A DNA stretch of 64,000 bases from Rikenellaceae bacterium (GTDB lineage Bacteria > Bacteroidota > Bacteroidia > Bacteroidales > Rikenellaceae), in NCBI GenBank assembly GCA_020860245.1, contig JAJBUQ010000006.1:1-64000 (forward strand), written 5' to 3'. Below, in pieces: positions 10,272-27,642 of this stretch (positions within the stretch are counted from its first letter, which is position 1; each line of letters starts with the position of its first letter). The position numbers and the translations under genes are program-made. The notes beneath the pieces were generated by a model, which made no database searches, was not told the origin of the DNA, and was given only the letters and a program-made list of their open reading frames with translations.

Positions 10272-11294
10272 TCATAATGACTTCCAGCACTGCGGATCGG
10301 AGGCATAAAAGTCATTCGTATATCCGTAGCTTACCGCAGGACAGCCTCTGCAAAATCGTTTAAGCTCGCATCCGGAACATTTTTCGAATTTATCGTAATT
10401 ACGGTAAAAATCCATTTTGTCCCCGGTAAATATATCGTACAGTTTTTCGGTAAATATGTTGCCCACATTGCTGTCCATACGGCGGCAGGCATAAATATCT
10501 CCGTTTGGGAGAATCGTGATGTGGCTGTTTGCGCAGTGACAGCCGTCGTATATTATATCTTCTTCCAGCCCTTCCGGTATTTTAAACAATCCTTTTTCAT
10601 ATAAAAACAATATCCAGAGATGATCCTTCAAATTAAAGCTCGTTCCGCTCTCTTTATGCTGTTCGAATTTAGTCCAACAAACTTCGAGCAGATTCCGGTA
10701 TTGCTGCGGTGTGATGTGGGTGCTTTTTTCGGGGCTGGTAGGACAGTATCTGCTGAACGCAAAAATATCCGCTTTATATTCTACTACCGTATCGATGATG
10801 TCCGGGATCTCGTCAATGTTCAATCCAGATACTGTACTCATAACGGTGCACTTCATACCTGCACTTTTTATACATTTTATTTTTTGGAGAGTATTATAGA
10901 ATGAACCGGATCTACGTATTGCATCGTGGGTATTACGCGTTCCATCTATGGATAACTGGTATCTCTCGCATCCGCATTCTTTCAGTCTCCGGCAGGTATC
11001 GTCGTTCAGATGAAACGGATTACCAAGAATACTGAATGGAAGCCCGTGCGATCTGAACAATCCGAGTAAATCCCAGAATCGGCTATGCAGAAGGGGGTCA
11101 CCGTCTGTAAGATAAAAGTAGGGAATACGGTTTGTCTGTTCACAAAAATCGAGACATTCGGCAAAGACCGATTCGATCTGCGTCCATGACATCTCTTTAA
11201 GCTGTATAAAATTATTTTCAGAAAAAATATAGCAATGCTGGCATCGTTGGTCGCAACTGTCGGTTATATGCCATTGAAATGCAAAGTATTCCAT
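10272..11294 (-). CDS. Radical SAM/SPASM peptide-modifying enzyme
   Basis: A 340-residue radical S-adenosylmethionine enzyme. The SAM-cluster motif C14-x3-C18-x2-C21 sits in TDSCDQRCQHCYIF, the GGE-like motif is DGDP (residues about 66-69), and the C-terminal third carries a SPASM domain with many cysteines (CHCANSH, YACRRM, CSGC, FCRGCP, PQC) for auxiliary [4Fe-4S] clusters. SPASM enzymes typically modify ribosomally made peptides, for example by forming thioether or carbon-carbon crosslinks. Immediately upstream on the same strand, 63 nt away, is a small gene encoding a peptide with four SSGCGV repeats, which is the obvious substrate. The pairing resembles the ACGX-repeat peptide/radical SAM systems known from family descriptions, though the repeat differs. 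No exporter, protease or second modifying enzyme is adjacent. Enzyme class is firm; the product is unknown. Confidence 0.88.
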   Translation of the reverse strand: MEYFAFQWHITDSCDQRCQHCYIFSENNFIQLKEMSWTQIESVFAECLDFCEQTNRIPYFYLTDGDPLLHSRFWDLLGLFRSHGLPFSILGNPFHLNDDTCRRLKECGCERYQLSIDGTRNTHDAIRRSGSFYNTLQKIKCIKSAGMKCTVMSTVSGLNIDEIPDIIDTVVEYKADIFAFSRYCPTSPEKSTHITPQQYRNLLEVCWTKFEQHKESGTSFNLKDHLWILFLYEKGLFKIPEGLEEDIIYDGCHCANSHITILPNGDIYACRRMDSNVGNIFTEKLYDIFTGDKMDFYRNYDKFEKCSGCELKRFCRGCPAVSYGYTNDFYASDPQCWKSL

Positions 11295-11321
11295 ATCGGT
11301 TTATATTCGAAGGTAAACAGT

Positions 11322-11348
11322 ACCGGTCCTCCTCTGCGGAGAACCGGT
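11322..11348 (-). promoter_or_regulatory. Intercistronic stem-loop between precursor and radical SAM gene
   Basis: ACCGGTTCTCC and GGAGGACCGGT (minus strand) form an 11-bp stem with one G-U pair and a 5-nt loop. There is no long T run after it, so it is more likely a partial terminator or RNA-processing/stability element than a full stop. It would allow much more precursor than enzyme to be made from one promoter. Confidence 0.65.
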
Positions 11349-11357
11349 ATTATTCTG

Positions 11358-11594
11358 TTATTGACCGACACCGCACCCTGAAGACATCTTAGAATCTTCT
11401 GTAACTCCGCAGCCGGATGACGGTTTTTTATCGTCCGTTACACCGCAGCCGGATGATTGCGGTCTGAAATTACCGACTCCGCATCCCGAAGAAGGGGACG
11501 CCGTCCGATCTACACCCATAAAACTCCGGGCGCTTCTGTGGGCATAATAATTGGTTACTCCTGCCCATCCATTCAATGATTGTAATTTGCTCAT
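11358..11594 (-). CDS. Putative RiPP precursor with four SSGCGV repeats
   Basis: A 78-residue peptide. The first 34 residues look like a leader (MSKLQSLNGWAGVTNYYAHR, then SARSFMGVDRTASP). The rest is four copies of SSGCGV at exact 12-residue spacing, with cysteines at 38, 50, 62 and 74, separated by variable hydrophilic six-residue linkers (GNFRPQ, TDDKKP, TEDSKM). These are its only cysteines. The gene lies directly upstream of a radical SAM/SPASM enzyme and shares its strand, so it is inferred to be that enzyme's substrate. It has its own -7 promoter element. There is no Gly-Gly cleavage site that I would trust. The regular, one-cysteine repeats and constant flanking glycines look like a multi-core peptide in which each SSGCGV is modified. 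It was kept despite its size because the repeats and neighbour cannot be chance. Confidence 0.85.
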   Translation of the reverse strand: MSKLQSLNGWAGVTNYYAHRSARSFMGVDRTASPSSGCGVGNFRPQSSGCGVTDDKKPSSGCGVTEDSKMSSGCGVGQ

Positions 11595-11847
11595 ACCGTA
11601 AAAGTTTTAATGTTTTATACATTGAGCAAATATATGGCCAAGAAAGAATCCATTATAGTGTAAAAATTCAGCGTCATACCGTTTAATACATTAATAATAA
11701 GCTAATTACATTTAATTATCCCAAGAGAGTATTTCTTCGAAAACCGACAAAAACTTCGGTATATTTACATCTGCATCACTGCAAGCGTGTAATAATTGAA
11801 GCGCGGAGATAATTGAACTTACAGCGGTTAAAATAATATTCGTAACA
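11595..11847. other. Intergenic region upstream of the peptide locus
   Basis: This 253-bp spacer holds the peptide gene's promoter. I see no gene in it and no clear terminator for the DHFR-like gene that ends at 11848... on the minus strand. Confidence 0.5.
11627..11634 (-). promoter_or_regulatory. -7 promoter element of the peptide gene
   Basis: TATATTTG on the minus strand, a perfect TAnnTTTG, 33 nt before the ATG at 11594. Confidence 0.65.
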
Positions 11848-12384: not shown

Positions 12385-13497
12385 TTAGCCGCTTTTTCTA
12401 TAACTCAATACCGCCCATCCGTTAAATACTACTGCAAACGTACTTAACGCCAACAGCTGCGGAAGAAGCTCCGATATACCGCTCCCTTTTAGGTAAATGG
12501 AACGCATTACCTGTATGAAATAGCTCAACGGATTTATTTTGGATATGAACTGCGCCCATTCCGGCATACTGCTTACCGGTGTAAACAAACCGCTCAACAA
12601 TATGAGAATCAACATGAAGAAGAACATAACGAACATAGCCTGCTGCATCGTGTCGGAATAATTCGAGATAACCAGCCCCAAACCGGAAACGACCAAAATA
12701 TATACGCTGGCATAGAAATATATTGTCAATATGCTGCCAACAGGATAAATTCCATAGATTAACGCTGCAAGGATAAAACAGATGCTAAGCACCACGAATC
12801 CTATTATCCAGTAAGGGATAAGTTTCCCCAGGATGAAAATTATTCTTTTCACCGGAGTGACATTCATCTGTTCGATTGTTCCAGTTTCTTTCTCGCCAAC
12901 GATATTGAGCGCAGGGAGGAATCCTGCTATCATAGTCAGAAGCATTACCACCAGTGCAGGTACCATAAATACCTTATAATCGAGATATAGGTTGTACATA
13001 TTGTGAGGGACTATGTTTATGGACGCATTGTTTAATTTATCTACGTTCCGTCCCCATTCCGTATTTATATCGTCCGCAAAATCTGCCATAATAGCGGCAA
13101 GATAAGCGGAACCCAATCCTCCTTTGGTCCCATTTACCGCATTTGCAGAGATCATTACCTCCGCGATTCCTGTTTTCACGAGATTGTTTTCAAATTCGGG
13201 TTCAATTTCGAGAATTATATCCGCCTTACCGGACTCGATGCTCTTCAAGGCCTCGCTGTTTGAAGACGATACATCTTCCAGCGTAAAATATCCTGATGCT
13301 ATGGTTTTGTTTATCAGCCGCTCGGAATATGTACTGTGATCGTTATCAATTACCGACAGCTTAATATTTTTTATCTCCTGATTTGCTGCCCATGGCATTA
13401 TCAGCAGCATCATAACAGGCATGAAGAGGATCAGTTTAGGGATAAACGGATTCCGGAAGATTTGTTTAAACTCTTTTTCTAACAGGAATTTTAACAT
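12385..13497 (-). CDS. ABC-2 type efflux permease, second subunit
   Basis: A 370-residue inner-membrane permease of the YbhR/YhiHJ kind. TM1 lies near residues 20-36 (PKLILFMPVMMLLIMPW), followed by a soluble periplasmic segment of about 130 residues and five more membrane spans (from about residue 175 on). The NVTPVKRIIFILGKLIPYW loop after TM2 is the coupling segment typical of ABC2_membrane_3 proteins. It pairs with the preceding permease (11 nt away) to make the heterodimeric channel driven by the two ATPases upstream. Together with the HlyD and TolC genes it forms a drug- or lipid-type exporter across both membranes. The substrate is unknown. Confidence 0.88.
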   Translation of the reverse strand: MLKFLLEKEFKQIFRNPFIPKLILFMPVMMLLIMPWAANQEIKNIKLSVIDNDHSTYSERLINKTIASGYFTLEDVSSSNSEALKSIESGKADIILEIEPEFENNLVKTGIAEVMISANAVNGTKGGLGSAYLAAIMADFADDINTEWGRNVDKLNNASINIVPHNMYNLYLDYKVFMVPALVVMLLTMIAGFLPALNIVGEKETGTIEQMNVTPVKRIIFILGKLIPYWIIGFVVLSICFILAALIYGIYPVGSILTIYFYASVYILVVSGLGLVISNYSDTMQQAMFVMFFFMLILILLSGLFTPVSSMPEWAQFISKINPLSYFIQVMRSIYLKGSGISELLPQLLALSTFAVVFNGWAVLSYRKSG

Positions 13498-13508
13498 ACG
13501 ATTTGGTT

Positions 13509-14615
13509 TTATTCGAGCCGGTTTTTAAATGTTTTCAGACATACTCCCAGTAATACTAATATCATAGCCGTAAGTATGGCGAACTCCTTCATAACGTATA
13601 TTCCGTCCACGCCCTGAATCATCAGTTTCCGGATCATCTCGATATACCATCTGGCAGGCATAATGCTGGATATCCACTGCAATACCGCAGGCATACTCTC
13701 GATCGGGAACATCATTCCGGATAACAACATGGTAGGCATCATAAGAGCCATACCGGATATAAGCATGGCTGCCACCTGAGTCTGCACGAGATTCGAGATC
13801 AAGAGCCCCAGCAGCAGTGCGACCAAAATGAACAGGAACGATTCGGAGAAAATCAAAATCAGACTTCCGGCTATCGGAACTTTCAGAACAAAGTAAGACA
13901 ATAAGAGGATCGTTATAAGGTTCACGACAGATAAAATAAAATAAGGCACCGCCTTGGCGATAATTATGAATAGAGGGCGGACCGGGGATGCAAGGAGCAC
14001 CTCCATGCTTCCACGCTCCTTCTCCCTTACGATAGCGATCGAAGTCATCATGGCGCAGATAAGCATCAGTATCAACCCCATTACCCCAGGTACAAAGTTA
14101 TACGCCCCCTCCATCTGCGGATTATACAGCATTCGTGTCTGCGGGTTTATCAGGAACCGGGTGTTGGTTAACGCGGCTGTTTCCTGACCATACTCGGTTA
14201 TAATACTCGTAGCATAATTGGTCATGGTCGTCGCCTGATTGGGATCGGTGGCATCAACTATCAACTGGACCGAAGCTTCTCCGATATGAAGCAGATCAGC
14301 TTCAAAATCTGCATCGAAAATTACAACCATGCTGACTTTGCCAGCTTTCATCAGTTCTTCTATCCGGTCAGGACTGTTTATATCCTCCACTAAAGTGAAA
14401 TAGTTATTCGACTGGAGTTTCTGGATGATTTGCTGAGTTACTGCATCTTTGGACAGATCGTAAACGGCAAATCTACTGTCTTTTACTTCGGTCGTTATGG
14501 CGAATCCGAATAAAATAATCTGCACGATGGGCATACCCAGCAGTATCAGCATAGTCCGGGTATCCCTGAAAATGTGATAGAATTCTTTTTTTACGAATGC
14601 TAAGAACTGTTTCAT
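13509..14615 (-). CDS. ABC-2 type efflux permease, first subunit
   Basis: A 368-residue inner-membrane permease of the YbhS kind, similar in plan to its neighbour: TM1 near residues 22-40, a periplasmic domain, then five spans from about residue 170, with the conserved EKERGSMEVLLASPVRPL coupling loop. It starts 1 nt after the TGA of the ATPase gene, so the two are translationally coupled. The two permeases are diverged paralogues, most alike in the spans near the C-terminus. Confidence 0.9.
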   Translation of the reverse strand: MKQFLAFVKKEFYHIFRDTRTMLILLGMPIVQIILFGFAITTEVKDSRFAVYDLSKDAVTQQIIQKLQSNNYFTLVEDINSPDRIEELMKAGKVSMVVIFDADFEADLLHIGEASVQLIVDATDPNQATTMTNYATSIITEYGQETAALTNTRFLINPQTRMLYNPQMEGAYNFVPGVMGLILMLICAMMTSIAIVREKERGSMEVLLASPVRPLFIIIAKAVPYFILSVVNLITILLLSYFVLKVPIAGSLILIFSESFLFILVALLLGLLISNLVQTQVAAMLISGMALMMPTMLLSGMMFPIESMPAVLQWISSIMPARWYIEMIRKLMIQGVDGIYVMKEFAILTAMILVLLGVCLKTFKNRLE

Positions 14616-14616
14616 A

Positions 14617-15360
14617 TCAGTCTGCGCTACGGGTTGCTGTTCTCGCGAATTTCTGGAATACTTCGTCCATATTTTGCGAATTTGTTTGTCGCTTAAGTTC
14701 TTTAGGGGTATCCAGGGCTTCTATCCTTCCGTCCACCATAATCGATACGCGATCGCAATATTCGGCTTCGTCCATATAGTGAGTCGTTACGAATACGGTT
14801 ATATCATCGTTTACCGCCTCGTATATCATTTCCCAGAACTGGCGGCGGGTGATTGGGTCCACACCCCCTGTGGGCTCGTCGAGGAATACTATCTTGGGAG
14901 AATGAAAGATAGAGACCGAGAAGGCGAGCTTCTGCTTCCATCCCAAAGGAAGTTCCCTAACCAATGTATTTTTTTCAGCGCTGAATCCCAACTCATTGAG
15001 GATACGGTCGGTTTTTGTTTTGATATCCGATTTCTTCATCCCGTATATTCCTCCGAATAACCGCATATTCTCTCCAACTGTCAAATCGTCGTACAGTGAA
15101 AATTTCTGGCTCATATAACCGATATTCGCTTTTATTTTTTCCTGATCCTTAGATATATCGAATCCGGCGACCTCTCCGCTTCCGGAGGTAGGGTGGCTTA
15201 ATCCACACAGCATTCTCATCGCAGTCGTCTTACCTGCACCGTTGGCTCCCAAGAATCCGAATATTTCCCCTTTATCCACTTCGAACGTAATATTATCCAC
15301 AGCGGTGAAATTTCCGAACTTTTTCGTCAGATTATTTGTTTTAATTACTATTTCGTTCAT
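14617..15360 (-). CDS. ABC transporter ATP-binding protein (second ATPase)
   Basis: A 247-residue cytoplasmic ATPase. Walker A is GANGAGKTT (about residues 39-47), Walker B IVFLDEPTGGVDP, H-loop VTTHYMDEAEYCDRV. The signature motif is the unusual LPLGWKQKLA in place of LSGGQ, the form known from the C-terminal half of YbhF-type proteins. Here the two halves of YbhF are separate genes that overlap by 20 nt. It ends in TGA directly before the permease ATG. Confidence 0.9.
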   Translation of the reverse strand: MNEIVIKTNNLTKKFGNFTAVDNITFEVDKGEIFGFLGANGAGKTTAMRMLCGLSHPTSGSGEVAGFDISKDQEKIKANIGYMSQKFSLYDDLTVGENMRLFGGIYGMKKSDIKTKTDRILNELGFSAEKNTLVRELPLGWKQKLAFSVSIFHSPKIVFLDEPTGGVDPITRRQFWEMIYEAVNDDITVFVTTHYMDEAEYCDRVSIMVDGRIEALDTPKELKRQTNSQNMDEVFQKFARTATRSAD

Positions 15361-16270
15361 TTTCTTTGTTTTCGGTTATCTGCATAAAACAATCCTCTAT
15401 GGTTGGTACGATCGGATGTACTTCTATATTAGTATGTCCTGTATCCGTCAAATATTTTTTCAATTCTTCAATGGTCAGCGAGTCATCTACCGTAATATGA
15501 ATATTATCTCCAAACGTAAAACTGCTTTTAACGTGTCCGTTATTCCGTAGATCGAGCAGCAGTTTATACATATCATTCCCCTCAACGGCCCACAGTTTTT
15601 CACCGAACTGGGATATTATACCGGACGGGGTATCGATCTTCAGGAATCGTCCATTCTGTATAAATGCTATACGGTCGCAGAGCGAGGCCTCATCCATGTA
15701 AGGGGTAGAAACAAGTATCGATATGTTTTGTTCTTTCAATTTTTTTAGCATATCCCAAAATTCCTTACGCGATACGGGATCGACGCCTGTGGTCGGTTCG
15801 TCGAGGAACAGCACTGTCGGTTTATGGATCAAGGCACAGCACAATGCAAGTTTTTGCTTCATGCCTCCGGACAATTTGCCTGCCCTCCGTTTTTTGAAGG
15901 GCTCGATCTGTTTATAAATGTCTTCGATCAGATGATAATTCTCCTCTATGGTCGTATTGAAAATAGTTGCAAAAAATTCCAGATTCTCCTCGACGGTGAG
16001 GTCCTGATAGAGAGAAAATCTTCCTGGCATATAGCCTATCTCCCGCCGTATTTCCTTATAATCTTTAACGACATCTTTGCCGTCCACGCTCGCGCTGCCT
16101 TCATCTGCCAACAGAAGCGTAGTAAGTATGCGGAACAATGTGGTTTTTCCGGCACCGTCAGGTCCGATTATTCCGAAGATTTCACCTGCATCCGCTTCGA
16201 AACTGATCTTCTGCAAGGCTGTGACCTTGTCGTATTTTTTGCTTATATTTTCTACTGAAACGGCGCTCAT
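15341..16270 (-). CDS. ABC transporter ATP-binding protein (first ATPase)
   Basis: A 309-residue cytoplasmic ATPase with Walker A GPDGAGKTT (about residues 36-44), signature LSGGMKQKLALCC, Walker B TVLFLDEPTTGVDP and H-loop replaced by VSTPYMDEASLCDR (proline in place of the usual histidine). It corresponds to the N-terminal half of YbhF. A C-terminal extension of about 80 residues follows the ATPase core. The normal signature here and degenerate one in its partner suggest one productive and one impaired ATP site. It lies 28 nt after the HlyD gene. Confidence 0.9.
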   Translation of the reverse strand: MSAVSVENISKKYDKVTALQKISFEADAGEIFGIIGPDGAGKTTLFRILTTLLLADEGSASVDGKDVVKDYKEIRREIGYMPGRFSLYQDLTVEENLEFFATIFNTTIEENYHLIEDIYKQIEPFKKRRAGKLSGGMKQKLALCCALIHKPTVLFLDEPTTGVDPVSRKEFWDMLKKLKEQNISILVSTPYMDEASLCDRIAFIQNGRFLKIDTPSGIISQFGEKLWAVEGNDMYKLLLDLRNNGHVKSSFTFGDNIHITVDDSLTIEELKKYLTDTGHTNIEVHPIVPTIEDCFMQITENKENERNSN

Positions 16271-16298
16271 GTCCGAAGATTTTAATTCATGAATGGTA

Positions 16299-17207
16299 TT
16301 AAAATTTGACTTCCCCGTACATCCCTTTTTTGATGTATCCGTCGTTGCGAACTTCGATCTTTACCGCATATACCAGATTTGCCCTCTCGTCGCGCGTCTG
16401 AATAGTTTTAGGAGTGAATTCTGCCTTATCCGAGATCCACGTTATCCTGCCCGGGTACTCTCTCATACCGGATTCGCCCATATCCGAATATACCTGTACG
16501 TTTTGTCCGATTTTTATCATAGTAAGCTGGCTCGCCGTAATATAAGCCCTGAGGTACATTATCTCTAAGTCGGCTATTTTAAAGAGCGCTTTACCCTGAG
16601 TCGCGAGTTCTCCCCGTTCGGCGTATTTCGCCAGTACCGTTCCTCTTACCGGGCTGTAAATCATCGATTTCTCAATCTGGTCATCGAGCTGGTCGATCTG
16701 CGCCTCGAGCGACAAACCTTCGTCGTTAAGGCTGTTGTTGGAATTGTTCACCGTCTCGATCTGCGCTGCGAGCTGTTTCTCTAATAATTCGATCTGTGCA
16801 TTTATATCGTCGAGCTGCTTTTGATTTCCAGCGTTTAAAGCTATCAGATTTTCATAGCGTTTACGTTCGGTTTGTTGAGTCTGAATCTGCTGACGGATGG
16901 CGGCAATCTGAGTGGATGGCGTGGTTTTTTTATTCCGTACGCTCTCTATATTGGACTGAAGCTGTACTTTTCTCAGATAAAGTTGAGTCGTGTCGATTAA
17001 TCCGACATGCTGGCCGGCATTTAAAATATCCCCTTCCAGAATATCGAATTCGAGAATCTCTCCGCTTCCCTGCGAAGAAACAATAATTTCCGTGACCTCG
17101 AAGACTCCTGAGGCATCGTATTCCATCCCTTTTTTATGGCAGGCACTGAGACCTAAAATAATAACTGCCGTAAACAGATATTTAAACATTTTCATAGCAT
17201 TATCCAT
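16299..17207 (-). CDS. HlyD-family periplasmic adaptor lipoprotein
   Basis: A 302-residue membrane-fusion protein that links the ABC permeases to the TolC channel. The leader ends in LSAC, a lipobox, so it should be a lipoprotein on the inner membrane. The two lipoyl half-motifs flank a long coiled-coil (about residues 80-185: repeated Q, E and L, as in AIRQQIQTQQTERKRYENL) and are followed by the beta-barrel domain (GKALFKIADLEIMYLRAYI). The ATG overlaps the TAA of the tolC-like gene by one base (TAATG), a sign of coupled translation. Confidence 0.9.
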   Translation of the reverse strand: MDNAMKMFKYLFTAVIILGLSACHKKGMEYDASGVFEVTEIIVSSQGSGEILEFDILEGDILNAGQHVGLIDTTQLYLRKVQLQSNIESVRNKKTTPSTQIAAIRQQIQTQQTERKRYENLIALNAGNQKQLDDINAQIELLEKQLAAQIETVNNSNNSLNDEGLSLEAQIDQLDDQIEKSMIYSPVRGTVLAKYAERGELATQGKALFKIADLEIMYLRAYITASQLTMIKIGQNVQVYSDMGESGMREYPGRITWISDKAEFTPKTIQTRDERANLVYAVKIEVRNDGYIKKGMYGEVKF

Positions 17208-18457
17208 TAATTGTTCGTAATATATTTCAGATTATAAATGGCTTGCAGTAGTTGGATCTCGTGAAGTATCCTGTCCTGAATGGCCGATTGTTCGGCATTG
17301 ACCTCTTTCATCAGGTCGAGGACAGATAGTGTTCCGTTTGCGGCCTTCGCCTCAGCCGAGCGTCTTACGGATCCCCGCAAACGAATTATATCTCTGTCCG
17401 AGTCCAGCAATTGCCGGATCTTCTCAATTTCGTTTACATTCTGAGTCATATCCAGTCCGGTATTGAAGAGGAAGGTCTCACGCTGGGACGCTATCATACT
17501 CTTATTAACCTCGATGCTGCCAAGGCTGTTTTTCCGTGTATAAAAATTTCCGAAATTCCAACTCAGCGACACCCCTGCAATATAATAAGGAGTAAATTTA
17601 TCTTTAAGGATATTCAATCCCGGCTTACCGTATCCTCCTGTCACGAAGGCGTTGAATTTAGGCCTTAGTCCGGCAGAAATTTCCGTTTTCTGTGCATCCA
17701 GATTCCGGAACTGAGCATCGTATAAATCGAGTTCCGGTCTGTTGTTGGTTAATGTATAGAATCGGTTAGTATCCGGTTTTACCAGTTCCGTGCTATGATC
17801 AATCGGTTCACCGATCATAGCGGAGAGCATTTCTAAATAAGCATTTCTGCTATATATCAATTCAGTACGGTTCTGCACGGCCTTGACGCGCTCTACTTCT
17901 ACGGCATCCAGATCTGCCTGATTCGCAAGTCCGGTCTGAACGTATGCGGATACTTCATTATAGTTCCGTTCCAAATCTTCCTGATAGATAGTGTTCTGCG
18001 TCAGCATTTCGTCGTTCAGAAGTACACCGAAGAATAATTGGTTCACTCTGTCTCTTATCGAATACATGGTCACATCGAGATTTTTCTTTTCCACCTCCGC
18101 CTGCGTACCGATATTCTCTTTTTGGGCTTTAATGGCACCGCCGTCCCAGATACTCTGGTTAATATCGACCGTCGCATCATATTGATCTTTACTCAATCCT
18201 TTTAAGCCATCTACTGCTATGGGTATCTGCGTTACATCCGACTGGTAAGTTGCCTTTGCGGAGAGTTGTATCTGAGGCAGATATCCTTTAGAGGCATTTG
18301 ACAAATTATAATCCTTCGATTTTTCAATCAGGTCGTATTGTACTATAAGAGGATAATTCGCTTCTGCTTTTTCATAACACTGCTCGATCGTCAATTGTCC
18401 GTAAGATGATTGGATAATTAAAACAGCCAGACTTAGAATAATTGAATATTTTTTCAT
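17207..18457 (-). CDS. TolC-family outer-membrane efflux protein
   Basis: A 416-residue outer-membrane factor. A signal peptide (residues 1-20, ending SSYG) precedes two repeats of the outer-membrane efflux domain with long amphipathic helices, typical of TolC. The opening LTIEQCYEKAEANYPLI is the usual motif of the family. It is the first gene of the seven-gene operon tolC-hlyD-ATPase-ATPase-permease-permease-dhfr. A TetR-type operator palindrome lies 43-56 nt upstream of its start, shared in sequence with one upstream of the TetR gene. Confidence 0.9.
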   Translation of the reverse strand: MKKYSIILSLAVLIIQSSYGQLTIEQCYEKAEANYPLIVQYDLIEKSKDYNLSNASKGYLPQIQLSAKATYQSDVTQIPIAVDGLKGLSKDQYDATVDINQSIWDGGAIKAQKENIGTQAEVEKKNLDVTMYSIRDRVNQLFFGVLLNDEMLTQNTIYQEDLERNYNEVSAYVQTGLANQADLDAVEVERVKAVQNRTELIYSRNAYLEMLSAMIGEPIDHSTELVKPDTNRFYTLTNNRPELDLYDAQFRNLDAQKTEISAGLRPKFNAFVTGGYGKPGLNILKDKFTPYYIAGVSLSWNFGNFYTRKNSLGSIEVNKSMIASQRETFLFNTGLDMTQNVNEIEKIRQLLDSDRDIIRLRGSVRRSAEAKAANGTLSVLDLMKEVNAEQSAIQDRILHEIQLLQAIYNLKYITNN

Positions 18458-18529
18458 ACTTTATGTATTATTTCTTTTGCTTTTTTAAACTATTTTGATT
18501 AACAAAATTGTTGGTATTGGTTAAAAAAA
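18458..18529. promoter_or_regulatory. Promoter region of the efflux operon
   Basis: The 72-bp gap between the TetR stop and tolC start contains the operator at 18500-18513 and a TAGTTTAA element (minus strand) just downstream of it that could be a weak -7 box. Transcription from here would be shut off by TetR bound to the operator. Confidence 0.4.
18500..18513. promoter_or_regulatory. TetR operator upstream of the efflux operon
   Basis: TAACAAAATTGTTG is a near-perfect palindrome (TAACAA/TTGTTG) between the TetR stop and the tolC start. It matches the site at 19183-19196 in 13 of 14 positions. Confidence 0.65.
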
Positions 18530-19138
18530 TTAGACCCGTAATTGATTTAAAATTATTTCGACATTAATTTGTTTACGGTGGTCCAAAAAAATTTGTTTAT
18601 CAAAATTCATAATTTCCGACAAAGCAGGCGCGCTGATAACGGCAAAGCAATTCAACGAAATTATGCTTATAATAAGATCCAATGGATTTATATACCGAAT
18701 TTTTCCTTTTTTAATTTCAGCGTCAATCTCCTCCCTTAAACTTCCGAGAACTTTACCAGCTTTTTCTTTAATATTATTAGCCAGTACAGATCTAAGATTT
18801 TCATTTGAAAAAATTTCACTGAAAATGAAATTCGGAAGTTTTTCATTAGACGCGATGAAATCGAAGTGATCTTCGATCCCGTTTTTTATTTTTTCCAGGA
18901 ACGGAAGATCCTGATTGAAAGTAAAGAGAAATATCTCTGACATCGACGTAACCTTATTATTAAAAACCGTGTCGAATAAGTTCTCTTTCGTGCGGAAATA
19001 GTAGTGAAGCATGGCATGGTTTACTCCAGCTCTTTTCGCAATTTCGGTAGTACGTGCTTTACCATAACCCTTTTCAAGAAATACAGCTTCGGCAGCCTCC
19101 AGTATAAGTTTCTCGCTATTTGTCTCTTTTGCACACAT
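18530..19138 (-). CDS. TetR/AcrR-family repressor of the efflux operon
   Basis: A 202-residue regulator. The N-terminal helix-turn-helix is TTEIAKRAGVNHAMLHYYF (about residues 27-45) after the opening KLILEAAEAVFLEKGYGKAR. The C-terminal ligand domain is helical and resembles the CecR/YbiH group, members of which control YbhGFSR-type pumps. The gene is immediately upstream of the efflux operon, same strand. Palindromes of the same sequence lie 46-59 nt upstream of its own start and 43-56 nt upstream of tolC, so it is inferred to repress both. The start at 19138 leads directly into the HTH region. Confidence 0.88.
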   Translation of the reverse strand: MCAKETNSEKLILEAAEAVFLEKGYGKARTTEIAKRAGVNHAMLHYYFRTKENLFDTVFNNKVTSMSEIFLFTFNQDLPFLEKIKNGIEDHFDFIASNEKLPNFIFSEIFSNENLRSVLANNIKEKAGKVLGSLREEIDAEIKKGKIRYINPLDLIISIISLNCFAVISAPALSEIMNFDKQIFLDHRKQINVEIILNQLRV

Positions 19139-19828: not shown

Positions 19829-20332
19829 TCATAGCCCCGTCCGGGCTTCGAGTTCGTCCGGGTAACGGTTGCCGGTAAGATCGATGCTGCCGGCCGCGGC
19901 TGTAAGGGAGGCAACCTCGTCCGGGGAGAGTTCTACGTTTACTGATCCGATATTCTCTGTAAGCCTTTCGGGTTTGGTTGTGCCGGGTATCGGTACAATA
20001 AATGGCTTTTGTTCCCTGAGCCATGCGAGGGCTATCTGAGCGGGCGTCGCATCTTTCTTTTCGGCGTATCTGCGTATCAGATCAAGCATCGACTGGTTGG
20101 CTTCGAGAACTTTAGGGGTAAACCGGGGTAATTTACTGCGGAAGTCGGCACTGTCGAACGTAGTCGAAGCGTCGAATTTCCCAGCAAGGAAACCTTTACC
20201 TAAAGAGCTGTATGGAACAAGTCCTATTCCCAGTTCTTCGAGCAGCGGAATCAGTTCTTTTTCCGGGCGTCGGAACCATAGCGAATATTCGTTTTGGACT
20301 GCACTTAACGGAAGTACCGCATATGTGTCATT
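19829..20332 (-). pseudogene. Truncated aldo/keto reductase, C-terminal part only
   Basis: Reading the minus strand from just inside the stop codon of the next aldo/keto reductase gives YAVLPLSAVQNEYSLWFRRP, then a typical aldo/keto reductase C-terminal half: EELGIGLVPYSSLGKGFLAG, ATPAQIALAWLREQKPFIVP and IPGTTKPERLTENIGS with the NADPH-phosphate-binding residues. It ends at 19829. The N-terminal half, with the catalytic Asp, Tyr, Lys and His, is missing, and an in-frame stop precedes the fragment. It is of a different subgroup (YajO/AKR11-like) from the intact neighbour. It is most simply a deletion remnant. A shorter ORF starting at the ATG at 20089 exists but would not encode an active enzyme. 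Confidence 0.8.
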
Positions 20333-21170
20333 TCATATTTCCCAGCCATTTTACCATTTCAGGGTCACGATGGTCGAAGAATGCACTCTCTCCACTGTCG
20401 AGCGTTCTTATCGACTCCATATCCTGCGCAGTTAGCTCAAAGTCGAATATATCGAAATTTTCCCGTATGCGGGATTCCGTGACCGATTTCGGGATCGCGA
20501 CCACATCCCGCTGCACAAGCCAGCGCAATACCACCTGGGCAATAGTTTTGCCGTACTTGTCACCTATCGATTGCAACAGTTCGTTTTTAAACAGGTTGTT
20601 GCGCCCTTCGGCAAACGGGCCCCACGATTCGATCTGAATGCCGTTATCTTTGAGGAATTTCTGGGCATCCACCTGCTGATGGAACGGATGTGTTTCGATC
20701 TGATTTACGGCAGGGGCTATCTCGTTATGGATTATAAGATCCATAATCCGGTCTGGATAGAAATTCGATACACCGATGGCGCGGATCCGCCCCTCTTTAT
20801 ATAGCTTCTCCATAGCCCGCCAAGAGCCGTAAACATCACCGAAAGGTTGATGTATCAGATAAAGATCTATATAATCGAGTCCAAGTTTTCCGAGTGACGC
20901 CTCGAAGGCCTTAAGCGCCCTGTCTTCACCTGCATCGCTGATCCATAGTTTTGTCGTGATAAACAACTCTCCGCGCGGTATACCGCTTTTTGCAATGGCG
21001 GCCCCTACCGCCTGTTCGTTATGATAAGCCGCCGCAGTATCTATAGAGCGGTATCCGGTTTCGAGTGCCCATAGAACGCTTTGTTCACACTTTTTCAGAT
21101 CGTCGATCTGATAAACTCCAAAACCGAGAATCGGCATTTCCACACCGTTGTTTAATTTAACTGTTTTCAT
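20328..21170 (-). CDS. Aldo/keto reductase
   Basis: A 280-residue (beta/alpha)8 NADPH-dependent reductase of the AKR5-like, 2,5-diketo-gluconate-reductase type. It opens with [16 protein letters not shown]; the catalytic Asp and Tyr are in [14 protein letters not shown], the Lys in TTKLWI, the His in LIHQPFGD. The C-terminal [19 protein letters not shown] binds NADPH. It likely reduces aldehydes or ketones in the cytoplasm. It lies downstream of the AraC regulator on the same strand (99-bp gap) and is probably controlled by it. Its TGA stop abuts the truncated second reductase. Confidence 0.9.
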
Positions 21171-21269
21171 TTTCTTTGGATTTATTGCTTTAATTACAAA
21201 GCAAAATTAATGCAAAGGGCGCGGAACTGAGTTGTTCTGCTGTCCATATTAGTTCGCTGGACAGTCCGA

Positions 21270-22091
21270 TTACTTCCCAGGAGAGAATCCGTACTGCTTT
21301 TTAAAAGCGACGGAAAAATGGGAAAGGTTTTTAAAGCCAACTTCCGTGTAAACATCCGAGACACGTTTACCCTCTCCTTTTATCATATCGTAAGCGGCTT
21401 TTAAACGACGGTGTATGATCCATTTCTGTGGAGACAGGTCGCTAACCTGCTTGAAGTCCCGCTTGAACGACGACAGGCTTCGACCGGTGAAGGCTGCTAT
21501 TTCTTCTACCGACAATTCATACATATAATTCTGTTCGAGAAATTCCAGTATATCTATTTTCCACGGTTGGGTAAAATCGAAAAGCGTGGGATAGAATCGT
21601 TTATCGTCCCTAAGCAGCAAATATACCCCTTCAACCTGTTTAAGGTACATCAGCTCGTCGGAAGGTTGTACGGCCTGGTCGAAGAACGGAGTAAGCGATA
21701 AGAACAGGCTGGTAATCTCCGGTCTCTCATTTATCTTCACGGCACTCTGTTTAAATTTCACCGCATCGACCGGCAGCGTGTTTTTATCCGTCTTCTGATA
21801 GAGTTCCCTTAAGAACGGGCGTTTGAGCATCATAAATATTCCCCGGAAGGGCTCGTCGCCGACCGAGTATTTCTCCATATTGACCCGATTGTCACGGCGG
21901 ACAAAAACGCATTCGCCTGGTTTGATAACCGTCCGTTTTTTCCCTTCGATGATACGGTATTCGCCAGAATAAACATAAACGAGGTAATGATCACGGGCCA
22001 TGCTTGCACACCGTCTATTATCACTAAAGTGATAGCTAAAGAATATGTCGCGGTAATTGAACACCGTATGTTCGTTCTTTTTGAATTGCAT
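21270..22091 (-). CDS. AraC-family transcriptional regulator
   Basis: A 273-residue regulator. The N-terminal cupin-like part (residues about 10-120, with KKRTVIKPGECVFVRRDNRV) would bind an effector. The C-terminal 90 residues form the double helix-turn-helix: LSVEEIAAFTGRSLSSFKRD and RVSDVYTEVGFKNLSHFSVAFK followed by the typical YGFSPGK end. It lies between the DUF362 gene (22 nt upstream) and the aldo/keto reductase gene. It probably activates the reductase in response to a carbonyl or oxidative signal, by analogy with common AraC-reductase pairs. Confidence 0.9.
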   Translation of the reverse strand: MQFKKNEHTVFNYRDIFFSYHFSDNRRCASMARDHYLVYVYSGEYRIIEGKKRTVIKPGECVFVRRDNRVNMEKYSVGDEPFRGIFMMLKRPFLRELYQKTDKNTLPVDAVKFKQSAVKINERPEITSLFLSLTPFFDQAVQPSDELMYLKQVEGVYLLLRDDKRFYPTLFDFTQPWKIDILEFLEQNYMYELSVEEIAAFTGRSLSSFKRDFKQVSDLSPQKWIIHRRLKAAYDMIKGEGKRVSDVYTEVGFKNLSHFSVAFKKQYGFSPGK

Positions 22092-22113
22092 AGTGCTCTT
22101 TTAAAGGTAAATT

Positions 22114-23076
22114 TTAGTCAACTATCACCAACTCGTATTGCTGTGTCCCAATCCCTATTTTCTCGGCATGGACGAGTGTATGGATACCGTTACGCGATTC
22201 CATTCTCTCGATGAGATGTACTTTGCCGTGATCTTCGGAGGCATAGACAAGGTCGACGCACGCTTTGTCCAACGCTACAGGGTCGAGCGAAGCGAGAATT
22301 CCTATATCGCCCATTTGAGGGTCGGCCGGATTCGAGTCGCAGTCGCAGTCCACAGAGAGGTTATTCATCACACTAATATAAATTATATTGTCACCGCAAT
22401 GATCGGCAATGGCTTTGGCAACTTCCGCCATAGTTTCGAGGAACTGTTCTTGTGAGGGATTACCCCAGTTCTCCGTACTTGTTCCTCCGGAATGTATCAG
22501 GCGTTTCCCATTTGCAGAAGCGATTCCGATAGACATATTCTTTATGGCTCCGCCAAAACCTCCCATAGCATGCCCTTTAAAATGAGACAGAATAACGGTG
22601 AAATCATAATAAAGATAATTTTTGCCGACTATATCGCGCGATATATGTTTGCCGCCTGTCACCGGCAGATCCACCTCGCCTTCGGCATCGAGTATATCGA
22701 CCGGAGCGATATCGAGGAATCCGTGATCGCGGGCGGTCTGCAAATGGGCCTCAGTACCTGCGCGACGACCGCCATAGGCGGTATTGGCGTCGATAAACGT
22801 ACCGTCCACGAGACGGACGAAGTCGCCGATAAGATCCGGTTTCAGGTAATTGTCGCCGCCCGGTTCCCCCATGCTCAGTTTTATAGCCACATTACCTTGT
22901 GCTTCCCGGCCAAGAAGTTCATACATTTTAATTATCGCCGCCGGTGTTATTTCCCGGGTCATATAAACTACCGGCACCGGCTGCTGTTCGTTACTGCTTG
23001 TTTTGTTGGATGCCTTACATCCTATACCACCTGCCATAATAGTAAAAATTGTTGCGGTTATAAGTATCTTTTTCAT
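22114..23076 (-). CDS. DUF362 domain-containing exported protein
   Basis: A 320-residue protein with a hydrophobic leader ending GGIGC at residue 20, so possibly a lipoprotein, though the lipobox is weak. The rest is a DUF362 domain: VAIKLSMGEPGGDNYLKPDLIGDFV, then DFTVILSHFKGHAMGGFGGAIKNMSIGIAS and LDPVALDKACVDLVY are its usual landmarks. DUF362 proteins are often fused to ferredoxin domains; here no ferredoxin motif is present, only a CDCD pair of cysteines. Function is unknown. The gene is first in a run with the AraC and aldo/keto reductase genes. Confidence 0.85.
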   Translation of the reverse strand: MKKILITATIFTIMAGGIGCKASNKTSSNEQQPVPVVYMTREITPAAIIKMYELLGREAQGNVAIKLSMGEPGGDNYLKPDLIGDFVRLVDGTFIDANTAYGGRRAGTEAHLQTARDHGFLDIAPVDILDAEGEVDLPVTGGKHISRDIVGKNYLYYDFTVILSHFKGHAMGGFGGAIKNMSIGIASANGKRLIHSGGTSTENWGNPSQEQFLETMAEVAKAIADHCGDNIIYISVMNNLSVDCDCDSNPADPQMGDIGILASLDPVALDKACVDLVYASEDHGKVHLIERMESRNGIHTLVHAEKIGIGTQQYELVIVD

Positions 23077-23458
23077 TGTGTATTATATTTTATTCCTATA
23101 AAAATTCTATATCGGTCAAGCAATAGTGCGCGGGATTTTATCCATAACGGCCAGTCCGTCGGACCGGGTAATCCTGCAAATTAAACGCGTCGGTGTGGTC
23201 TGTTTTTCAGAAAAAGAACATATCTGTAACGCGGGTTTAAGTATCGAAATCGCCGTATTGCAAAAATTTATCGAACGCAATGTTGCCGGATTTTTCTGTC
23301 TCCTTAGGATCAGTTATTTTAATTTTAATCACAACCGAATAATAACTCTCAGTAGTTGCATTGCGAATTATCCGTTTATTTAGTTTCCATATTCCCGGAT
23401 TACTGTGAACATGTTTAGCTAAGAGCTGCAACTACCACACCTGTAATAATTATATACC
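23077..23458. other. Intergenic region, no gene seen
   Basis: 382 bp between the DUF362 start and the glutathione-peroxidase stop. One minus-strand frame (about 23237-23431) reads VVIKIKITDPKETEKSGN before its stop and has coding-like composition, but I recognise nothing in it and it may be the decayed tail of a lost gene. Confidence 0.4.
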
Positions 23459-24007
23459 CTACCTTCCTGATTCGATCCAAATAATAATTTCTTCCGCATT
23501 GGGTAGGATCTTCGGAGAAACGGACATAATCCAGTTTCCGTTCTCGTCGATAAGAAATTTTTGAAAATTCCATGTAACCTCCACATCCTCTACTCCGTTA
23601 AGCGATTCGGATGTGAGCCACCTGTATAGCGGTTCCATATCATCTCCTTTTACGGAAATTTTTGACATTATCGGGAAAGTGACTCCGTAATTCTTTTCGC
23701 AGAAAGCTGCTATCTCCTCGTCCGTTCCAGGTTCTTGCCCAAGAAAATTATTGGCCGGGAAGCCTATAATAACGAACTTATCCGGTCCGTACTTTTTATA
23801 CAGCTCCTGGAGCTGGCTATACTGTGGCGTAAGGCCGCATTCCGAAGCGACGTTTACCACCATTACTTTCTTCCCTTTTAATTGGGAAAAATGGAAATTT
23901 TCACCGTTTATATCTTTTACTATAAAATCGTAAAATGATGACTGTTGTGCTAAAACGGCTGTAAAAAGACCGACAGATAGAAGCAGTGTAAAAATAATTT
24001 TTTTCAT
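23459..24007 (-). CDS. Exported glutathione peroxidase-family thiol peroxidase
   Basis: A 182-residue peroxidase that reduces peroxides using thiols. Residues 1-19 form a signal peptide (ending AVLAQ), so it acts in the periplasm. The peroxidatic residue is Cys in NVASECGLTPQY (cysteine, not selenocysteine), the Gln/Trp/Asn of the catalytic group are in LKGKKVMVVN, GFPANNFLGQEPGTDEEI and VTWNFQKFLID. Start was placed at 24007 (MKKIIFTLLLS) because the longer frame has no signal-like start. It is a single gene; it fits an envelope defence against peroxide and lies among other exported redox enzymes. Confidence 0.9.
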   Translation of the reverse strand: MKKIIFTLLLSVGLFTAVLAQQSSFYDFIVKDINGENFHFSQLKGKKVMVVNVASECGLTPQYSQLQELYKKYGPDKFVIIGFPANNFLGQEPGTDEEIAAFCEKNYGVTFPIMSKISVKGDDMEPLYRWLTSESLNGVEDVEVTWNFQKFLIDENGNWIMSVSPKILPNAEEIIIWIESGR

Positions 24008-24411
24008 ATTATCGTTATTTATTGTTTTATTCCCGGAAACGGTTCGCAGGCTTTTGACAATTCCTCCTCTACGTCCAATCTGGTCGGTTATCAATATCCG
24101 CTGCAGGCTTTTGCATTGCAAATACTGCAGCGGGACAAGGGCTGCATGGCGGAATTTGGGATTTCACGATCCATGCCAACAAGAAGTCCCTGCAGTTCCT
24201 ACTATATTGCAAATCGCCCCTGTCTGGCAGGCACGCCTTATTTTCCTTCACTATTTTATTACATAGTGGGATAATTCCGGAAGTATGTCGGTATAATTAA
24301 TTTTGCCAGCTATCCGTTCCCCGTGAATAAGCACGTAAGTGGAGAAACTGAAACTCTCGGCGATTGTGATGTCATATCAAACATAATTTATCGAATCCCT
24401 GTTTATAGATC
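24008..24411. other. Gene-free region with nested inverted repeats
   Basis: About 400 bp without a convincing gene. At 24098-24133 CCGCTGCAG and CTGCAGCGG form a 9-bp inverted repeat around an inner TTGCA/TGCAA pair. GCATGG/CCATGC (about 24144-24176) is a second small hairpin. Composition here is richer in G+C than other spacers. It may be a repeat element or a structured RNA; see findings. Confidence 0.4.
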
Positions 24412-24879
24412 TCAAACATTATGTTCGCCTGTATCCCCGGCACCGATGTCGCTTCCACGTTTCTTCTTGTTAATAAAATTGGTTATAGCCATTATTCCTT
24501 CATGTGGGGTATCGATATTCCTACATAGGTTCTCCATTGGACAAAGATCGCTACCGTCGCGGTTCATGATTTCGGATACCAATCTGCCGTAACCGTATTT
24601 TATCCCTGCCTGGGACAAAACCTGAACTGCGGATTCACTCATTACTTCAGCATAAACTTCCTTCAATTTCGTTTTGCAAATGATAAAAGCTGCTGCTTTG
24701 CCTATAACTTTATCCGCCAATACTGCGCCCTCCAGTATATCCTGGTTCTTCTCGCAGATCTTCAACAATGGCATTATTCCTCTCTCTTTCGATACCAATT
24801 CCACGCCATCCTTAACTACAACCAAAGAATATCCGTAATTCTTCAGGTGGTTTTTAGCCAATTCAATCTCGGTTTTCAT
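24412..24879 (-). CDS. DUF1893 domain-containing protein
   Basis: A 155-residue soluble protein. The pattern SLVVVKDGVELVSKERGIMPLL, GAVLADKVIGKAAAFIICKTKLKEVYAEVMSESA and a cysteine/proline end (SDLCPMENLCRN) are those of DUF1893, a family in the cytidine-deaminase-like fold group, though without a full catalytic zinc motif that I can see. It lies 65 nt after the broken TonB receptor gene, on the same strand. Function unknown. Confidence 0.8.
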   Translation of the reverse strand: MKTEIELAKNHLKNYGYSLVVVKDGVELVSKERGIMPLLKICEKNQDILEGAVLADKVIGKAAAFIICKTKLKEVYAEVMSESAVQVLSQAGIKYGYGRLVSEIMNRDGSDLCPMENLCRNIDTPHEGIMAITNFINKKKRGSDIGAGDTGEHNV

Positions 24880-24944
24880 TTTATTTTCGATGAATGTTAT
24901 CGATAACTTTGTATTTTCTCTGCCTTTCTGCGCATATTATCGCT

Positions 24945-26834
24945 TTAAAACCTAAACGACACTCCTCCGAACACAGTTGCCCTCGGCATCGGGAAGCCGT
25001 AGTTTATTTCATACTTCTGAGCCAGAAGATTCTCTCCTCTGGCAAAAATATTCAGCCAGTCGGCAGCCCGGTATGATACCCTTAAGTTCCATAATACGTA
25101 TGATTCACGCAGTACGTTTTCATCGTCGTCCAGTTTAACGAGACCTTTTATATACTGCAGACCTGTCGAAAACATCCACCTCTCCAGATTGTAGTCAAGG
25201 CCCGCATAAAATTTATGGTGAGGGGTTCCCTCGATATCGTGTTTCATATGGATATAGCTGTAATTACCATTTACCAAAAGGTTCGACAATATGTTATACC
25301 TTCCTTCGAGTTCAATGCCGTAGTTTTCGATCTCACCGGTGTTCGTCCACATCCAGCGGTCGCCTACCGGAGCGGTAATAATACTGTTTTTGCCCTTAAT
25401 ATAGTAAAGGTTAATTCCGAAATTTAATTTACGGTCGAGAAAATTTTGTTTAAGCGACACTTCATAGTTCCAGACGCTTTCAGGTTTGAGTTCATCATTT
25501 GCTATACCAAACATGTAGAGTTCTCGAATAGTCGGATTGCGGAATCCTTTGCTAACGATCCCATTCACCGTTGTATTCCTACCCGCGAACCAGATTATAC
25601 CAAACTGAGGTATCCATTCGGCACCCGTTATCGCATGATGGTCAAGCCGTACACCTGCGTTCAGACTGAGTTTATTAAGGATCGACTGCTGGAAATTTAC
25701 GTAAGCGGCAACTTCGTTTAATGATTTTCTTGCAAGATCGACATCGTCCAGCCCGCTGCGGTAAATATTTCACGCCCGGCCTCCGAAGTGGGTAAAATCT
25801 AATCCGATCGTCGTCTGATTGCCTCTGAAAAATGAATAATTCTGATAGGCAGTCACACCCAACATTTTATCACGTGAACGATAAAGCGCATCGCGCGGAA
25901 CGCCACCTGGCGAATACCCGTCATCGATTTTATGATAGCCGAAATTGTAGTAGAATTTAAACGCTCCGGATGTCTTGTCATAATCATTCTGCAGAGAGAA
26001 CGAAGTTACGCCACGGGTAACATTCATGTCGTAATCCAACCGTGGAGAGTAAATGGAGTAAGGATTAGAAGCGTCGTAATTAGTTATATCTATGTCGGCA
26101 AAGACCTTCCAACTACGGGTAAAATCATAACCGAGTTTAGCATAGCCGCTATATTGTTCGAACTCCATATTCTCACGATGCCCGTCGCTGCGATTATATC
26201 CCAACGCGACATAGCTACTGAATTTTCCCGACCGGACTGCATTCGACACCTCAGTGGATAGTGTGTTATATGACCCGTACATGGCACGGAAATGAGTCCT
26301 TATACCATCTTCTTTCTCCTGCTTGGTCAGAATATTTACAACGCCACCCATAGCGTTTGAACCATATAGCACCGATGCGGGTCCGCGCACGACCTCAATA
26401 CGCTCTGCCATAAGCGTCTGGTATGAATCTGCCAATCCGTGCCCCATTAATCCCATATACTGCGGATGGCCGTCGATAAGCATTAGCATCTGCGCTCCGC
26501 TTCCGATACCGCGAATAGATATGCTACCGGCAGAACCGTTTGAAACCATATATCCCATTGGTCCAATCGATGTCACAAACAAACTTGGCACCTGCTCCGT
26601 GAGTATCGGCAACACAGATTGATCCATTCTTCTGTCGAGTTGTTTCTCCGATATTACACTCACGCTCATAGGCAGATTCCTTGTCGTAGTTGCAGCGCGG
26701 CTGCCTGTAACTACTATCTCTTCCATCCATAAAGAATCGATAGCAATTTCTCCCCCATCGGATCCTATGACTTTTAAATTACCGGCAAAACAAAATGCTA
26801 TCACCGACACTAAAACCGTTATTTTTTTCTTCAT
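24945..26834 (-). pseudogene. TonB-dependent receptor interrupted by one in-frame TGA
   Basis: The reading frame for a 629-codon TonB-dependent outer-membrane receptor is interrupted once, at 25770-25772 (TGA on the minus strand). Upstream is a signal peptide, then the plug domain (EIVVTGSRAATTTRNLPMSV, the GSAGSISIRGIGSGAQMLML block, MAERIEVVRGPASVLYGSNA, MGGVVNIL), then beta-barrel repeats. After the TGA the same frame continues into normal barrel strands and ends in VFGGVSFRF, with a terminal Phe. The sequence around the stop reads HFGGRA-stop-NIYRSG, where tryptophan would fit, so a TGG-to-TGA change is the simplest cause. The receptor probably took up a siderophore, cobalamin or other metal complex. 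Loss, sequencing error or read-through remain open. Confidence 0.85.
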
Positions 26835-27140
26835 TCAATTAATAAGTTTGTTCCGACATTTGTACATACAGCGTCGAACCCGTTTATCAAACTATTTAAC
26901 AATCACTGTTTTCTTTACCAATCTCCACCTCGGCCCTTGAACTGCCGGCACGGCTCTATTATATGTTTCGAGAATTATAATGTCATATTCATTTTATAGT
27001 TGTCCCATTGCCTCTAATCACCTGTATGTAAACCGCGTTGATCTCGACTGCCAATACTATTGCCTACCAACGAAGTCGTCGAACTATTTGCTGTCACGAA
27101 TATTGTAAATACCATAATTAATAATCCAACCATTTGCCGG
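26835..27140. other. Intergenic region, no gene seen
   Basis: 306 bp between the TonB receptor start and the cupin stop. I find no promoter match, terminator or riboswitch that I would defend. Confidence 0.4.
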
Positions 27141-27635
27141 TTATTTATCCAGGTTGAAATATACATCGTCCGATACCGGTTCCATCCACTCGGTCGGGGC
27201 TGCTTCAGGATTTGTTCCCAGTGCCATATGTGCGAACCAACTATCTGGTGTCGCACCGTGCCAATGTTCTACTCCTGGATATATTGCCACCACATCTCCC
27301 TTATGAAGGACCTGTACGGGTTTACCGCGCTCCTGATAGTAGCCCATGCCATCCGTCACGATGAGCAGCTGTCCACCGGGATGCTTATGCCAGTGGTTCC
27401 GGCATCCCGGTTTGAAAATCACATTCCCTACCGACACTCCGAACGTATCGGTATCCGTCACAAGCATTTCGAGCCAACCCGTTCCTGTAAACCAATCGGG
27501 ATTTACAGGCTGCATATCCTCGGTCACTTCTATTTTATCCAACTTCCCATTACTCATATCCTGTGCATTAAGACTGTTTATCGCCAGCGCTGTCACCACA
27601 GCAAACGTTATCGTTATAATTTCTTTTTTCATCAC
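27141..27635 (-). CDS. Exported cupin-domain protein
   Basis: A 164-residue protein with a signal peptide (residues 1-24, ending SLNAQ) and one cupin domain. The metal-binding motif is HWHKHPGGQLLIV with the later His in EHWHGAT. Similar cupins in this phylum are annotated as carboxymuconolactone-decarboxylase-associated cupins. The periplasmic location is unusual. It starts 7 nt after the alcohol dehydrogenase gene and is probably co-transcribed with it; a joint role in aldehyde or quinone handling is possible. Confidence 0.85.
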   Translation of the reverse strand: MMKKEIITITFAVVTALAINSLNAQDMSNGKLDKIEVTEDMQPVNPDWFTGTGWLEMLVTDTDTFGVSVGNVIFKPGCRNHWHKHPGGQLLIVTDGMGYYQERGKPVQVLHKGDVVAIYPGVEHWHGATPDSWFAHMALGTNPEAAPTEWMEPVSDDVYFNLDK

Positions 27636-27642
27636 TTATTCC

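Follow-up and report, generated by a model that had tools for sequence, protein, structure and literature searches.

The enzyme SbtM was shown to turn cysteine or selenocysteine into a thio(seleno)oxazole, a conversion in which four hydrogens are lost (review, PMC11002830). For peptides with EGKCG repeats it was shown that MNIO enzymes make 5-thiooxazoles at Cys-Gly dyads with a mass change of -4 Da each, and that the thiooxazole peptides show an absorbance near 302–305 nm and bind copper (PMC12668002; PMC12538549). As to the ACGX system, which is represented by the enzyme family TIGR04340 (rSAM_ACGX; acgM in RefSeq) and the precursor acgA, no study or experiment on the system, TIGR04340, acgM or acgA was found in the literature searched.

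Here, a gene pair from a Rikenellaceae bacterium is compared with these systems. It lies in a stretch of 64,000 nucleotides (assembly GCA_020860245.1, contig JAJBUQ010000006.1, positions 1 to 64,000), referred to as the window, and encodes a repeat-bearing peptide and a radical SAM/SPASM enzyme (Table 1). The pair is not a new system but belongs, as a divergent member, to one that is already named and uncharacterised. For the explanation as a whole, i.e., a divergent acgA-acgM RiPP pair that would make thiooxazoles and give a redox-stress product, we see an even chance.

Table 1. Coordinates of the gene pair, its elements and the neighbouring operon in the window.
Feature	Position	Strand	Basis
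Radical SAM/SPASM enzyme, acgM-like (TIGR04340), 340 aa	10272..11294	-	555 bits
Asp64 codon (DGDP instead of GGDP)	11103..11105	-	unique among 86 family members
Precursor peptide gene, acgA-like, 78 aa, ATG start	11358..11594	-	ORF; leader homology
Repeat 4, SSGCGV (Cys74)	11367..11384	-	
Repeat 3, SSGCGV (Cys62)	11403..11420	-	
Repeat 2, SSGCGV (Cys50)	11439..11456	-	
Repeat 1, SSGCGV (Cys38)	11475..11492	-	
Leader, residues 1–34 (MSKLQSLNGWAGVTNYYAHRSARSFMGVDRTASP)	11493..11594	-	profile of relatives' leaders and alignment
TATATTTG, possible -7 promoter box	11627..11634	-	TAnnTTTG pattern
TetR-TolC-HlyD-ABC-ABC-permease-permease operon, drug-exporter type	12385..19138	- (same strand as the pair)	

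The acgA-acgM-like gene pair

The enzyme scores 555.2 bits against NCBIfam TIGR04340 (cut-off 400) over positions 1–340 of the 341 of the model, with a Cx3Cx2C motif at C14/C18/C21 and Pfam matches to Radical_SAM (74.6 bits) and SPASM (37.6 bits). The ORF and these scores bear out the first-pass annotation, a model's reading of the DNA, in which a radical SAM enzyme with C14-x3-C18-x2-C21 and a SPASM domain was placed directly behind the peptide gene; the peptide gene lies upstream, with a gap of 63 bp between the two. For comparison, 85 loci with related enzymes were available, 80 from a scan of genome contigs and five from genome searches. The 80 loci belong mostly to Bacteroidota, with Bacillota, an elusimicrobium and a Methanobrevibacter in addition, and their enzymes are 55–74% identical to the window enzyme. 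A precursor with Cys-Gly repeats lies directly upstream of the enzyme in 82 of the 85 loci, and for one of the remaining three only 47 bp of upstream sequence are present. In the tree, the window enzyme groups within 18 Bacteroidales enzymes (support 98/94) and not beside the Alistipes enzyme. A weak match to viperin by PADLOC (54 bits, superfamily-level) was rejected, the enzyme being SPASM-type and accompanied by a precursor.

The ORF likewise confirms the 78-residue peptide with four SSGCGV units that had been noticed before: cysteines are present at positions 38, 50, 62 and 74 only, each inside such a unit and with a fixed spacing of 12/12/12 residues. The four copies vary at 5 of 18 nucleotide positions (3, 6, 9, 15 and 18), all of them synonymous third positions, which shows that the amino-acid motif is under purifying selection and that the repeats did not arise by chance. 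Given the different codons in the four copies, the ORF is very probably translated and the SSGCGV motif selected. The leader in front of the repeats scores 44 bits (E 6.3e-12) against a profile of 16 relatives' leaders, taken from the nearest Bacteroidales precursors, compared to 8.9 bits (E 0.59) for the best of 10,000 shuffles. TIGR04341, the model of the acgA precursor (cut-off 28 bits), gave no match to the window peptide at E<=10; since genuine ACGX-repeat precursors of some relatives fail to reach the cut-off as well (19.7 and 13.3 bits), the model is narrow. Membership in TIGR04340 together with the homologous leader identifies the window pair as an acgA-acgM pair by descent, and judged from sequence we regard its place in the ACGX system as almost certain. 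The likeness to ACGX systems had thus been put too cautiously at first, since the enzyme is a full member of TIGR04340 and the leader is homologous. A TAnnTTTG box had also been reported in front of the peptide gene; the box is present, but the pattern is barely above chance in the window (67 occurrences vs. 53 +/- 7 expected) and therefore makes weak promoter evidence.

The core of the window peptide departs from that of its relatives. Across about 423 CG sites in 80 distinct precursors of the relatives, the residue at -1 is Ala in 357, Ser in 47 and Gly in 9 cases, and the residue at +2 is Ala, Ser or Thr in 405 and Val in 3. Gly at -1 and Val at +2 together (GCGV) are present at all four window sites and in none of the 80 precursors. 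Moreover, a CG-xx-CG or CG-CG doublet occurs in 78 of 82 relatives, and the window peptide has none. A repeat spacing of 12–14 residues is common among the relatives, so that the fixed 12-residue spacing is not distinctive. Of the undescribed subtype suggested earlier, the SSGCGV variant core therefore stands and the spacing does not. Similarly, the comparison with homologues proposed alongside it gave a divided answer, SSGCGV being absent from the homologues and Cys-Gly repeats beside such enzymes being abundant. The Cys-Gly dyad is constant in the family, in line with the idea that each CG-containing unit is the likely modified core of a RiPP-type precursor/SPASM pair.

Counting the window's own genome each time, the enzyme was found in 2 of 268 genomes of the family, 5 of 393 of the order and 1 of 395 of the class, and no precursor from these searches carries SSGCGV. 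In 395 Bacteroidota genomes, a degenerate GCGV-repeat pattern matched the window peptide itself and, apart from it, a single place without repeats. Viral contigs contained no match to the enzyme and phage records none to the peptide, while PHROGs returned a generic radical SAM family only and Rfam nothing around the locus. Among the related loci, the precursor upstream of position 6001 in the Oscillibacter valericigenes locus (L079) appears frameshifted after the first repeat pair. The acgM gene of a Methanosphaera plasmid (L123, 3995–5019) has a helix-turn-helix regulator on one side and a zinc-binding dehydrogenase on the other; its annotation as two CDS means that it is probably broken or frameshifted.

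Operon context in the relatives and divergence of the window copy

In 45 of 82 relatives, a divergent HxlR-type regulator lies within 1.5 kb upstream, corresponding to 45 such genes in 118 kb compared to 9 in 638 kb elsewhere. Directly downstream, 67 of 82 relatives encode a quinone-reductase-like zinc-type dehydrogenase (33), a nitroreductase (25) or a PNPOx-ferredoxin protein (9), and Sir2 and macro-domain genes are found nearby in about 20. As an example, the order on a Roseburia plasmid (RefSeq annotation) is helix-turn-helix regulator, acgA, acgM, nitroreductase, 4Fe-4S, protein-ADP-ribose hydrolase, Sir2 and DUF1848. For the HxlR/DUF24 regulators YodB, CatR and HypR it was shown that an N-terminal cysteine senses quinones, diamide and HOCl, and that genes for nitroreductases and azoreductases are under the control of such regulators (PMC6943732). 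Most HxlR regulators of the relatives visibly have a CPxR or CPV motif at the N-terminus. The divergent HxlR gene and the downstream redox gene in the relatives suggest that the ACGX family plays a role in redox or thiol stress.

Beside the window pair there is neither an HxlR gene nor one of these oxidoreductase partners; the two HxlR genes of the genome are on other contigs. As judged by Pfam, the pair is preceded by a DHFR/RibD-like gene upstream, and downstream follows a flavodoxin-like gene with what appears to be a signal peptide. The same-genus genome G001 is without the enzyme and has other genes at this place, beside a conserved SDR gene, which means either a lineage-specific arrival of the window pair or a loss. 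Identical copies occur in G168, a genome of the same family, and in an Alistipes MAG, which makes Rikenellaceae the probable family of the window's genome. It had been stated that no exporter is nearby, which is incorrect as to the drug-type exporter operon on the same strand and correct in that such an operon does not recur beside the ACGX relatives; the adjacent ABC exporter was therefore rejected as a part of the system. Further along, the window holds a redox-gene cluster (20328–28806) whose members, read from sequence, include aldo/keto reductase, glutathione-peroxidase-like and cupin genes as well as a zinc alcohol dehydrogenase that appears to have a signal peptide.

The window enzyme itself has one conspicuous substitution. 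Where the SAM-binding GGDP motif has its first Gly (position 64), Gly is present in 85 of 85 relatives and Asp in the window enzyme, and the aligned residue is Gly in SkfB, SuiB, CteB and BlsE as well (printed PDB alignments). Asp64 may be due to a single-base change or a sequencing error. The uniqueness of Asp64, an end branch of 0.36 vs. a median of 0.071, the missing redox partners and the different genes in G001 might indicate that Asp64 disables SAM binding, that the activity is lost or changed and that the locus is a stranded remnant. We consider this very unlikely, since both reading frames are intact, the four repeats differ synonymously only and the family-invariant cysteines are all kept (14, 18, 21, 101, 109, 252, 254, 270, 306, 309, 315, 318 and 336). 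Furthermore, the enzyme shows 5 departures at 138 conserved columns, which is not above other divergent members and leaves general decay, as well as relaxed selection on the enzyme, unsupported. Besides the cluster ligands, the radical SAM domain holds two further cysteines, Cys101 and Cys109, that are present in 86 of 86 enzymes. SSGCGV, doublet loss, Asp64 and partner loss taken together could also mark a neofunctionalised ACGX subtype with a different product or role, which seems unlikely to us.

Chemistry at the Cys-Gly dyads

After TIGR04340, the best-scoring family for the window enzyme is SbtM (TIGR04082) with 170.9 bits, below its cut-off of 350, and in all 54 enzymes scanned SbtM has the best E-value after TIGR04340, better than the heme, sacti- and ranthipeptide maturases. 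Around the predicted modified position, only Cys and the +1 Gly are constant family-wide and -1 and +2 vary, so that no cross-link acceptor is evident. The unrelated MNIO enzymes act on the same dyad when they form 5-thiooxazoles in EGKCG repeats. A one-residue heterocycle requires no conserved partner, unlike a thioether, which favours a thiooxazole. A peptide with up to four 5-thiooxazoles is accordingly the predicted product, and we put this chemistry at close to, if not quite, an even chance. The SbtM similarity is far below the SbtM cut-off (171 vs. 350 bits), which could mean a different chemistry.

A thioether, as in sacti- and ranthipeptides, had been proposed at first, in which each Cys sulfur would be linked to a nearby residue with a loss of 2 Da per repeat. 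Such links are made by many SPASM enzymes in peptides with Cys repeats, and the structural or sequence relatives of the window enzyme include SuiB, SkfB and CteB. However, the sacti-/ranthipeptide families reach only 54–58 bits (StsB 58 of the 625 needed, SkfB 55 of 300, PapB 54 of 340) against 171 bits for SbtM, and the family shows no conserved acceptor residue. The greater nearness to SbtM and the Cys-Gly dyad thus favour -4 Da per repeat over -2 Da, which makes the thioether the less supported proposal and, in our view, an unlikely one.

The AlphaFold2 model of the enzyme (pLDDT 90) has anSMEcpe and SuiB as its closest solved folds. The sulfatase maturase anSMEcpe likewise attacks the C-beta of cysteine, and the nearness of the modelled fold to both enzymes fits a Cys C-beta chemistry but is not decisive. 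With anSMEcpe as the best fold match, the two extra invariant cysteines (101 and 109) and no activity reported for the family in the literature searched, cysteine might also be oxidised at a single site in another way, e.g., to an aldehyde or by dehydrogenation, or undergo a chemistry without precedent. This appears rather improbable, as the family sits by sequence beside SbtM and not beside the sulfatase maturases.

Following the thiooxazole reading, the 34-residue leader would recruit the AcgM enzyme, whose SAM-bound 4Fe-4S cluster would generate a 5'-deoxyadenosyl radical that takes a hydrogen from the Cys beta-carbon in each Cys-Gly dyad. With the SPASM clusters as putative electron acceptors, each Cys would be oxidised by four electrons and the preceding carbonyl oxygen would close onto C-beta, forming up to four 5-thiooxazoles with a mass change of -4 Da each and -16 Da in all. 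The product would be an intracellular peptide that is rich in thiols, reactive towards metals or electrophiles and linked to redox stress.

Comparison with known systems

ACGX peptides occur in gut and environmental Bacteroidota, Bacillota, an elusimicrobium and methanogens. For these peptides, the analysis predicts a product with -4 Da per Cys-Gly and a setting in redox-stress operons with HxlR, a quinone-reductase-type gene or nitroreductase and sometimes Sir2/macro ADP-ribosylation genes, both of which can be tested. New in the window pair itself is the GCGV core with Asp64. The pair is a natural variant with which to probe the residues that the enzyme accepts at -1 and +2 of the modified Cys; for the family as a whole, the redox-operon context is of wider interest.

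With the ACGX system, the window pair shares an enzyme above the family cut-off, the gene order, a homologous leader and the location of all cysteines in Cys-Gly units. It differs in having a GCGV core instead of ACGX, with no ACG and the Cys-Gly dyad kept, in carrying Asp64 and in being without a CG-xx-CG doublet, a TIGR04341 match and an HxlR or oxidoreductase partner. SbtM/SbtA thio(seleno)oxazole RiPPs (TIGR04082) are the best other family over the radical SAM-SPASM region and have Cys as the target, whereas the match starts at model position 198, leaving an N-terminal part of ~197 positions without counterpart in the window enzyme, the score is far below the SbtM cut-off and the window peptide is without selenocysteine. 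The EGKCG captophorins/bufferins have in common with the window pair a repeated Cys-Gly dyad, a disordered peptide and no protease or exporter; however, their enzyme is unrelated (MNIO and a partner protein) and the window peptide is not evidently secreted. Finally, the sacti-/ranthipeptide maturases (SkfB, SuiB relatives, PapB, CteB) share the radical SAM/SPASM fold and a Cys-containing precursor, but the window enzyme scores low against them and its family has no conserved acceptor residue.
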